Shown: positions 35,892 to 49,614 of the stretch, piece after piece | Layout of the letters: every line of letters starts with the position of its first letter | How positions within the stretch are numbered: the stretch's first letter is position 1 | Origin: Lichenostomus cassidix | Taxonomy: Eukaryota > Chordata > Aves > Passeriformes > Meliphagidae | NCBI GenBank assembly: GCA_008360975.2 | Contig: CM039183.1 | Location: 35,641,850 to 35,705,849 of the forward strand | Length of the DNA: 64,000 nt | Direction: 5' to 3' | Position numbers and translations under genes: made by a program | The notes under the pieces: model-generated | Told to the model about the DNA's origin: nothing | The model's input: only the letters and a program-made list of their open reading frames with translations | The model's database searches: none

Positions 35892-36051
35892 TCAGTAGGA
35901 AACCATTGCATTCTTGATCCAAGAAACAAAACAGAGGAGTTCAGACAAAACCAGGCTTTGATGGTTGTGTACAGTCCAGCCCCGAGGAGGTGACCCCACA
36001 TTGAACAAATTTGTCCTTCTCTTGGCAGACCAGAGGTCCTCCAACTTCAGT
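35892..36051 (-). pseudogene. Relic of the last plasminogen exon (end of the protease domain)
   Basis: After an acceptor-like CTCCCCAG (36052-36059) the - strand encodes [12 protein letters not shown], then GVTSSGLDC, then SKPGF. This corresponds to the final exon of plasminogen (GGPLVC...GVTSWG...NKPGV). Several essentials are gone. The GDSGG that should open the exon reads TEVGG, so the catalytic serine (Ser195, chymotrypsin numbering) is a valine. Trp215 of TSWG is serine. A stop follows SKPGFV, and the remaining C-terminal helix (FVSWIKNAM) is found only in another frame. The preceding protease exons are absent. I read it as a non-functional remnant. Confidence 0.85.
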
Positions 36052-36194
36052 CTGGGGAGGAAAAGAGTATAAAGTGACTTCTCTAGCAATGGAGACACTA
36101 GGCACACAAACAATGAAAAATTGGCAGGAATAATACTGTAATTCCAAAGGCGTCGAAATGTGAGTGACACAAGGACTCTGGAGAGAGAAAGTGT

Positions 36195-48900: not shown

Positions 48901-49614
48901 CTTAGAGCTGTAAAAAAGAATTCTGGACATATTCCTGGAAAGGGCGATCTAAGTTACTGAAGAGTAAATTTCTATCTACTGCTCTCATGAAAACGAGGGA
49001 GAACAGTTCAGTGTGTTTGACAACAGGGAATGTGAAATTGCTGGAATATAAAAGAATTTGTTATTTTTTTATTTTGTTGTAAATATTTAATTTCAAAACT
49101 TTGTAACTCGTGTCATAAAGGATGAAAATCAGTATCACTGTGCTTAACAATGCCTGGCAGTAAACACAGCTTTACCTTTAGCATTTTTTGCAAAGCCTAT
49201 CTCTAATTTTAGAGATAACTTCTCACTGACTGCTATGGGTTTTGTACAAGCCCTTGGCAGGCTGCTTCCCAAGGGTGCCCCCATCTCTGGACATGGGAAA
49301 TGTTCTCTGGGAGTCATTAGCTGCCCATGCAGACACCAAGGCTGCTGCTCTGCTGGTGTCATTAATGAACACAACCCTGAAGCTGCACAGCTCTTGCTGT
49401 ATTCAACTGCAGCTCCTTCTGACCAGCGAGGCCCAAATCCATCATTGTCCAGGAAATGACACATTGATCTAGGGATTCACCTAGATCACCTACCTTCACC
49501 ACGTGGAGGTTGCAAGTGTTTTGCCCCAGTCTCACCTAGGCAAGCAGAAGGCAAAGGACTCTTACCTGAGCTGAGCAAGAGCAGAAAGAGAAAGGCAGCT
49601 TTGTTACTCCCCAT
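36942..49614 (-). CDS. Plasminogen-family protein made of PAN and kringles 1-4 only
   Basis: Exons, 5' to 3': 49566-49614, 46580-46715, 45827-45933, 44470-44584, 43223-43386, 42514-42643, 42278-42396, 40613-40775, 39636-39766, 38645-38804, 36959-37146. Sizes 49/136/107/115/164/130/119/163/131/160/188 parallel plasminogen, and all phases fit. Domains: signal peptide, PAN (about residues 20-100), four kringles, each with six cysteines. The extra cysteine pair that links kringles 2 and 3 in plasminogen (ECMQC; RYPCK) is kept, as is the basic pair EKR before kringle 1, where plasmin trims plasminogen. No kringle 5, activation loop or protease follows; only 0.9 kb separates the last exon from a dead last-exon relic. 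Reading through the kringle 4 donor gives a stop at 36942-36944 (492 residues); splicing to the relic gives an immediate stop (488). Expected: secreted, liver-made, lysine-binding, without protease activity. It may instead be a recently truncated pseudogene. Confidence 0.88.
36959..38804 (-). CDS. Kringle 4 exons of the plasminogen-like gene
   Basis: Exon 38645-38804 ([32 protein letters not shown]) and exon 36959-37146 ([27 protein letters not shown]), joined in phase. The Asp-x-Asp of the lysine-binding site (PDGD) is present, but the arginine that normally precedes WEYC is isoleucine, removing one positive contact for the ligand carboxylate. A 20-odd residue Thr/Pro/Ser-rich linker follows and ends at a good donor (TCAG|GTAACA) in phase 1, as at the kringle 4/5 border of plasminogen. 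Confidence 0.92.
37801..37823 (+). repeat. Poly(A) tract in the kringle 4 intron
   Basis: About 23 adenines in the intron between the two kringle 4 exons. No clear retroelement body precedes it. Confidence 0.9.
39636..40775 (-). CDS. Kringle 3 exons of the plasminogen-like gene
   Basis: Exon 40613-40775 ([37 protein letters not shown]) and exon 39636-39766 ([31 protein letters not shown]). In human plasminogen the motif here is PDGK, and kringle 3 does not bind lysine; here it is PDGE, as in the weakly binding kringle 2. The cysteine in YPCK matches the partner for kringle 2 in the known inter-kringle disulfide. Confidence 0.92.
40785..40872 (+). repeat. Purine-rich (GGAGA)n-like low-complexity tract
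   Basis: Nearly pure A/G strand just upstream of the first kringle 3 exon (gene orientation), so on the coding strand it is a long pyrimidine tract before that exon's acceptor. Confidence 0.9.
42278..42643 (-). CDS. Kringle 2 exons of the plasminogen-like gene
   Basis: Exon 42514-42643 ([33 protein letters not shown]) and exon 42278-42396 ([35 protein letters not shown]). The intron between them is only 117 bases. The additional cysteine of ECMQC is conserved. PDGE keeps two acidic residues of the ligand pocket. Confidence 0.93.
42933..43000 (+). repeat. Intron repeat, copy 1
   Basis: Starts CCTTATCCAGATCATTGCAG and ends ATGAAGATAAAG. It is nearly the same as 44277-44345, with about one difference in eight to ten bases. 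It lies in the intron between kringle 1 and kringle 2. Confidence 0.75.
43223..44584 (-). CDS. Kringle 1 exons of the plasminogen-like gene
   Basis: Exon 44470-44584 ([32 protein letters not shown]) and exon 43223-43386 ([38 protein letters not shown]). The Asp-x-Asp (PDGD) and aromatic PWCYTT of the strong lysine site are present; the usual RYDYC tyrosine is phenylalanine. The second exon is longer than in human plasminogen because of an extra linker (DQVTHTEEG) before kringle 2. Confidence 0.93.
44064..44096 (+). repeat. Poly(T) tract in the kringle 1 intron
   Basis: A run of about 30 thymines in the intron between the two kringle 1 exons. It lies about 180 bases before intron repeat copy 2. 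Confidence 0.9.
44277..44345 (+). repeat. Intron repeat, copy 2
   Basis: Starts CCTTATCCAGATCGTTGCAG and ends ATGAAGATAAAG, pairing with 42933-43000. It lies in the intron inside kringle 1. Confidence 0.75.
45827..46715 (-). CDS. PAN (apple-like) domain exons of the plasminogen-like gene
   Basis: Exon 46580-46715 ([28 protein letters not shown]) and exon 45827-45933 ([25 protein letters not shown]). The four cysteines follow the plasminogen N-terminal domain (C-x3-C-x7-C, then LQC). In plasminogen this domain keeps the molecule in its closed form and is cut off by plasmin just after the basic pair. Confidence 0.93.
49566..49614 (-). CDS. Signal-peptide exon of the plasminogen-like gene
   Basis: ATG at 49614 opens [16 protein letters not shown], a typical short signal peptide, and the 49-base coding part ends in phase 1 at CAG|GTAAGAG. 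Human plasminogen also has a 49-base coding part in exon 1. Joined to the PAN exon, cleavage is expected near the SSVKG junction. Confidence 0.9.

Follow-up and report, generated by a model that had tools for sequence, protein, structure and literature searches.

Origin and exon structure of the gene

Does the window, the whole stretch of 64 kb that was analysed here (C5:35641850-35705849 of a 1.1-Gb assembly), hold a living gene for the PAN domain and the first four kringles (K1 to K4) of a plasminogen-like protein, and if so, from which parent did it arise? An earlier note, made from the letters of the DNA, had described an eleven-exon plasminogen-like gene at this locus, and the gene was confirmed: eleven exons on the minus strand, from 49614 to 36959, encode a signal peptide, a PAN domain and K1 to K4.

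49566..49614, minus strand: exon 1, signal peptide (splice/phase check, translation)
46580..46715, minus strand: exon 2, first part of the PAN domain (splice check, translation, PDB match)
45827..45933, minus strand: exon 3, second part of the PAN domain (splice check, translation, PDB match)
44470..44584, minus strand: exon 4, first half of K1 (splice check, translation, PDB match)
43223..43386, minus strand: exon 5, second half of K1; lysine-site residues D-G-D, W, Y, R, F
42514..42643, minus strand: exon 6, first half of K2 (translation, PDB match)
42278..42396, minus strand: exon 7, second half of K2; D-G-E, W, F, R, W
40613..40775, minus strand: exon 8, first half of K3 (translation, PDB match)
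39636..39766, minus strand: exon 9, second half of K3; D-G-E, W, Y, R, W
38645..38804, minus strand: exon 10, first half of K4 (splice check, translation, PDB match)
36959..37146, minus strand: exon 11, second half of K4 and linker; D-G-D, W, F; Ile at plasminogen Arg71

Exon boundaries were placed manually and verified with a script. Each of the ten introns has GT..AG borders, and the exit phases of exons 1 to 11 alternate (1,2,1,2,1,2,1,2,1,2,1). The spliced reading frame comprises 487 residues and one further base, is free of stop codons and contains 30 cysteines; an alignment with Sylvia, Malurus, Lepidothrix, Pithys, penguin and chicken found 30 of 30 cysteines in each of these six proteins. 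In the PDB, the best match of the product was plasminogen (4a5t, E = 1.2e-203), which spans PAN to K4, and the matches also included angiostatin and single-kringle chains. K4 is single, and the number of kringles is not expanded. Reading frame and splice sites are unbroken throughout the retained exons; breakage is confined to the last exon of the gene. Two intron stretches beside kringle exons, at about 42930-43000 and at 44275-44350, are alike by eye; they might be copies of a repeat or stem from an ancient internal duplication.

The gene belongs to avian PLG-2, a catalytically dead paralogue

Two copies of PLG are reported for birds and for coelacanths (PMC6337849). One of them, PLG-2, is an extra PLG gene whose catalytic activity was lost, according to a figure legend of that paper; the main text names only coelacanths for this loss and contains none of the terms passer-, finch and truncat- (PMC6337849). 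Our protein search for relatives, restricted to the best 120 of 2219 matches, and the tree separated two plasminogen lineages in birds, and the catalytic motifs could be read in 62 of those 120. The PLG-type rows with readable motifs have DSGG, the His in TA[AT]HC, and R-[IV]-V-[AG]-G. In the PLG-2-type rows among the same 120, Ser195 is replaced by V or A (EVGG, EAGG or DAGG) in 33 of 34 readable cases, and of 32 readable His57 positions, 31 have Q or R. Nearly all full-length PLG-2 rows that were read have also lost the activation cleavage site. The exception at both Ser195 and His57 is duck P0020, in which a PLG-2-like front is joined to a PLG-like back and which looks like a chimeric PLG-2/PLG gene model. 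Tinamou row P0078, which keeps the His, reads VESGG and sits on a long branch beside PLG-2, was left out of these counts.

In a tree of 56 rows, the window gene fell inside bird PLG-2 and not inside bird PLG. Its nearest relative was Malurus (fairywren; support 100/87), followed outward by Sylvia (warbler; 100/97) and then by suboscines (100/99), and a tree of 21 rows again put it among bird PLG-2, apart from bird PLG. From this position, we take the gene to be songbird PLG-2. The same contig also carries an apparently complete plasminogen at C5:56.07-56.10 Mb, 20 Mb from the window gene, which is the second, full plasminogen gene that the earlier note had advised looking for. Its exons span residues 10-801 of the 802-residue vulture PLG, K1 to K5 included, and contain the RIVAG site, TAAHC, DIALL and QGDSGGPLVC, with a signal-peptide exon upstream. 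Given the grouping with PLG-2 and this plasminogen in the same genome, a simple truncation of plasminogen was ruled out. The parent is not an ordinary plasminogen cut short, as had been supposed, but PLG-2, a paralogue with a protease that had died in other birds as well. The window gene is PLG-2 by descent, but the order PAN-K1-K5-protease was not present in it, and no functional protease was found in the window or among the 55 of 233 candidates scored genome-wide.

The 3' end of the gene: K5 and protease exons are missing

K5 and the upstream protease exons are absent from the 64-kb window in searches with the human K5-protease part, with penguin and chicken PLG-2 and with king vulture and eagle PLG as queries, which bears out what had been claimed from the letters. 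The exons for His57 and for the activation site were found neither in the window searches nor in a search of the whole genome in which 55 of 233 candidates were scored. The following elements lie beyond exon 11.

36942..36958, minus strand: read-through of the exon 11 donor; together with the last base of exon 11 it encodes GNSWL and a TAA stop
36195..36200, minus strand: AATAAA, candidate polyadenylation signal, 742 bases past the stop
35895..36051, minus strand: relic of the last protease exon of PLG-2, acceptor kept, with a stop and a frameshift (bird and human protein searches)

The Ser195 position of the relic exon reads V, within the EVGG signature that is found in bird PLG-2. This exon had been called dead. 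Its stop and frameshift are indeed real decay, but TEVGG in place of DSGG is not: since V or A already stands at Ser195 in 33 of the 34 readable PLG-2-type rows of birds, TEVGG is the usual state there and was inherited. The distance from K4 to the last exon is 0.9 kb in the window gene versus 8.5 kb in plasminogen of the same genome. The donor of exon 11 is normal. If it is used, splicing to the relic exon gives an immediate stop (TSD-stop), and if it is unused, translation ends with GNSWL; with both outcomes, the protein consists of PAN and four kringles. A manakin tail exon had no convincing match in the window.

Other plasminogen copies and neighbouring genes

The search of the whole 1.1-Gb genome with penguin PLG-2 as the query gave 60 matches; with 55 of 233 candidates scored, no PLG-2 K5 and no intact protease exon were found elsewhere. 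It hit the window relic and a second relic at C5:56105852-56106010, and it overlooked one relic penultimate exon that a separate comparison found. The penultimate and last exon of PLG-2 are thus both present as relics just upstream of plasminogen (loci L025/L026, C5:56105852-56106382, minus strand). Around the relic at C5:56105852-56106010, 709 bases align to window positions 35631-36332 with 78.6% identity. The two relic exons upstream of plasminogen, 20 Mb from PLG-2 of the window, look like the outcome of a duplication or a movement with reciprocal loss. The chimeric models in owl (P0121) and duck (P0020) suggest that PLG-2 and PLG were once tandem neighbours. Eleven other kringle loci resemble other genes, presumably ROR, tPA, HABP2 and the like, when set against the K5-protease regions of one PLG-2 and one PLG; this comparison left out further kringle loci, on C2 and C15, which we take to be HGF- and MST1-like. 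Misplaced K5 or protease exons were rejected, as no intact ones of PLG-2 turned up at the 11 kringle loci or in the whole-genome protein search, in which 55 of 233 candidates were scored.

The window contains, in addition, these features.

61636..61734, minus strand: remnant of the final exon of another, dead copy of plasminogen type (QGDSGKPLVF...), with an internal stop and a lost Cys
4126-4995, plus strand: last exon of DNA polymerase eta, with a UBZ finger
19802-20344, plus strand: p31comet (MAD2L1BP) gene
27259-28688, minus strand: epoxide hydrolase exons

Two kringle relics of this dead third copy, to which the last exon at 61636-61734 belongs, lie upstream, one of them with a lost Cys, of PLG-2 at C5:35707912-35709232 (minus strand), 2.1-3.4 kb outside the edge of the window. 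The neighbours in the window differ from the mammalian plasminogen-SLC22A neighbourhood, and a piece of MAP3K4 used as the query gave nothing convincing in the window or beside plasminogen.

The truncated form in relatives

Truncated songbird proteins are already deposited under the generic name 'plasminogen-like'. Sylvia P0017 ('plasminogen-like isoform X1'; 493 residues) is without a protease and ends in ...TSGNSWL, as the window gene would upon read-through; because P0017 is a gene model, gene calling may have created this GNSWL terminus artificially. Its 90% cluster has 217 sequences. An oscine PLG-2 with a protease was not encountered among the best 120 of 2219 matches, nor among all 60 of a second listing. 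That the gene is truncated in all songbirds is inferred from few sequences. The truncated form itself is real, common to at least two songbird lineages and probably functional.

In the suboscines, the antbird Pithys (P0031) has kept the PLG-2 protease without K5, as has an eagle isoform entry (P0030), and in a model of the manakin Manacus candei (P0133) only the last two protease exons are left. Other suboscine entries stop near K4 (P0023, P0028, P0068 and the partial P0039 and P0050) and, ending there, may be isoforms or incomplete models. P0031 and P0133 might reflect a stepwise loss of protease parts of PLG-2 in suboscines. A finch 'plasminogen-like' model of 1239 residues (P0154, Haemorhous mexicanus; cluster of 46 sequences) reads PAN-K2-K3-K2-K3 followed by a whole plasminogen, and this is either a kringle expansion like that of apo(a) or a fused gene model.

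Signs of constraint

Over 487 aligned residues, the window and Sylvia proteins have 60 differences, no internal gap, no stop and 30 of 30 cysteines. Malurus P0038 has 41 differences over 437 residues; it is an incomplete model, and its alignment has 15 internal gap columns, which fall at exon borders. When neutral evolution was simulated 10,000 times up to 60 differences, 2.7% of the sequences were free of stops, all cysteines survived in 1.2%, and both were true of 0.03%; in the Malurus case, the joint figure was 0.23%. These simulations were run without indels, and assumed indel rates push the percentages lower still, but the figures overstate the case because the Sylvia and Malurus sequences were noticed for being intact.

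In the 56-row tree, the path from the passerine node measures 0.112 for the window gene, 0.125 for Sylvia and 0.131 for Malurus. The corresponding values of four suboscines are 0.106, 0.112, 0.113 and 0.135, of which the highest belongs to Pithys, whose protease is kept; we see no clear sign of a rate burst after truncation. From an unresolved fork in the 21-row tree, the oscine paths (0.103, 0.124 and 0.125) are longer than those of two of the three suboscines (0.074, 0.081 and 0.117). Passerine PLG-2 has evolved faster than most other neoavian PLG-2, and passerine plasminogen is faster too. The dN/dS of the window gene versus its own plasminogen is 0.18 (bootstrap, 0.12-0.26), but this value was dropped as evidence because dead relics scored alike in the same comparison (0.16, 0.19, 0.26 and 0.48). 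The window gene looks alive from its sequence. Apart from the parent, which is not plasminogen, the idea of a germline gene for PAN and K1 to K4 has stood, as the gene is common to another songbird and has signs of constraint.

A plasminogen-type promoter

Upstream of exon 1 lies a stretch that resembles the promoter of the genome's own plasminogen.

49615..49869, minus strand: promoter/5' flank of PLG-2; 225 of 255 positions identical to the plasminogen promoter (88.2%)

Both promoters have the same HNF1-like site, GAGAATGATTAAC, which agrees with the HNF1 consensus at 11 of 13 positions, and the same TATA-like element, CAATAAAA. The start of intron 1 is 82% identical between PLG-2 and its own plasminogen, and the block made up of promoter, exon 1 and the start of intron 1 (49241-49869, minus strand) is 81% identical over 630 columns. 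In the 300 bases flanking the other exons, the intron sequence aligns over short stretches in most cases; the exception is the short intron between exons 6 and 7, where both exons plus the intron reach 71.5%. Synonymous divergence between the window gene and plasminogen is about 1.1. The 5' block may have been conserved, or it may have been kept alike by gene conversion and not by selection; in both cases, PLG-2 has a plasminogen-type promoter.

Lysine pockets and proposed function

The five lysine-pocket positions that were read are D-G-D/W/Y/R/F in K1, D-G-E/W/F/R/W in K2, D-G-E/W/Y/R/W in K3 and D-G-D/W/F/I/W in K4. Sylvia and Malurus match the window protein at these positions in charge and aromatic character apart from one site in K4, and all five are kept in K1 to K3 of the three songbirds. 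K4 is without the cationic Arg71, which is Ile in the window and Leu in Sylvia and Malurus.

We propose that the mRNA would run past the donor of exon 11 to the GNSWL-stop and end at the AATAAA 0.74 kb further on; if it were spliced to the relic exon instead, the protein would be cut short at nearly the same point. The promoter shared with plasminogen would drive PLG-2 in the liver, and the product would be secreted into the plasma, where K1 to K3 could bind lysine ends on fibrin and on cell receptors. A protein with three pockets and without an enzyme would then compete with plasminogen, leading to less clot lysis and less pericellular plasmin. Angiostatin consists of kringles 1-4 released from plasminogen and is described as an inhibitor of angiogenesis, with K5 fragments being stronger inhibitors (PMC3543409). 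Since angiostatin inhibits angiogenesis, a similar effect of the window protein on vessel growth is possible; the kringle with the stronger effect, K5, is missing from the window gene.

The reading that we prefer, with a probability of roughly 0.6, is that songbird PLG-2 is a lysine-binding kringle decoy secreted by the liver, i.e., a noncatalytic competitor of plasminogen. A bolder version is that songbirds, which make up almost half of all bird species (PMC4377847), have a fixed and expressed angiostatin-like gene, formed by death of the protease in early birds and later loss of K5 and the protease in oscines, that acts as a constitutive brake on plasmin and vessel growth; this may be so, but we put it forward tentatively and with the odds against it.

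Alternative explanations

The gene could be a young unprocessed pseudogene that lost K5 and the protease and whose decay is yet to come, and its broken last exon and the dead upstream copy would fit with that. However, the truncated form is present in the window species and in Sylvia, with 487 residues free of stops, cysteine changes and internal gaps, for which the neutral simulation gave P of about 0.0003 (indels not counted, both sequences chosen as intact), whereas the dead copy nearby has acquired a stop and no longer has at least two of its cysteines. We regard a pseudogene as improbable. An expressed protein in which PAN or another surface has taken on a new function, e.g., as a carrier or as a decoy for plasminogen-binding microbes, is unlikely but deserves serious thought: the parent PLG-2 is already a nonenzyme in other birds and K4 has no Arg71, but the lysine-pocket positions of K1 to K3 are kept in three songbirds.

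The missing exons could also be an artefact of the assembly. Collapse is common for tandem duplicates, and the genome search, with 55 of 233 candidates scored, overlooked one relic exon. The same search did, however, recover K5 and several protease exons of the genome's own plasminogen, which are less similar to the query than PLG-2 exons would be, but no intact K5 or protease exon of PLG-2, and the stop codon of the Sylvia protein has the same position. Because the C-terminus in Sylvia is identical and, with 55 of 233 candidates scored, only broken PLG-2 exons were found elsewhere in the genome, a collapse or misplacement of K5 and the protease exons is very improbable. That the truncated form is just one isoform and a distant set of exons restores the protease is hardly credible: suboscine entries do exist with and without protease parts (P0023, P0028, P0031 and P0133), but an intact PLG-2-type protease exon was not found in the genome among the 55 of 233 candidates scored.

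Significance and comparison with known systems

In the openly licensed literature, as judged by titles and abstract openings, we found no description of a truncated songbird plasminogen or of its two-step origin. If expressed, the gene is a natural experiment, a gene-encoded version of a product that is otherwise made by proteolysis. Living birds offer a stepwise series, from working plasminogen to dead full-length PLG-2 to kringle-only PLG-2, and this series is a system for studying the roles of kringles without the enzyme. The annotation 'plasminogen-like' in songbird genomes can mask a nonenzyme.

The closest system is avian PLG-2, with which the window gene shares the lineage in the tree, PAN and K1 to K4, and the EVGG signature in the relic last exon; most other birds listed keep K5 and/or the dead protease, whereas the window gene has neither. 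Like plasminogen, the window protein has PAN and kringles with all disulfide cysteines, but it is without the protease. Apolipoprotein(a) (LPA) is likewise a plasminogen duplicate and a kringle protein without plasmin activity. In LPA, K4 is multiplied and K5 and the protease domain are kept, and the protein is joined covalently to apoB in a lipoprotein; the window gene has neither a kringle expansion nor a protease. Human PLGLA/PLGLB are C-terminally truncated plasminogen duplicates described as ending behind the PAN region, whereas the window gene retains K1 to K4. Angiostatin has the same set of kringles, and the lysine-pocket positions of K1 to K3 are kept in the window protein. Angiostatin, however, is a proteolytic fragment of plasminogen, whereas the window protein keeps PAN, has Ile for Arg71 in K4 and comes from a separate gene with its own stop.
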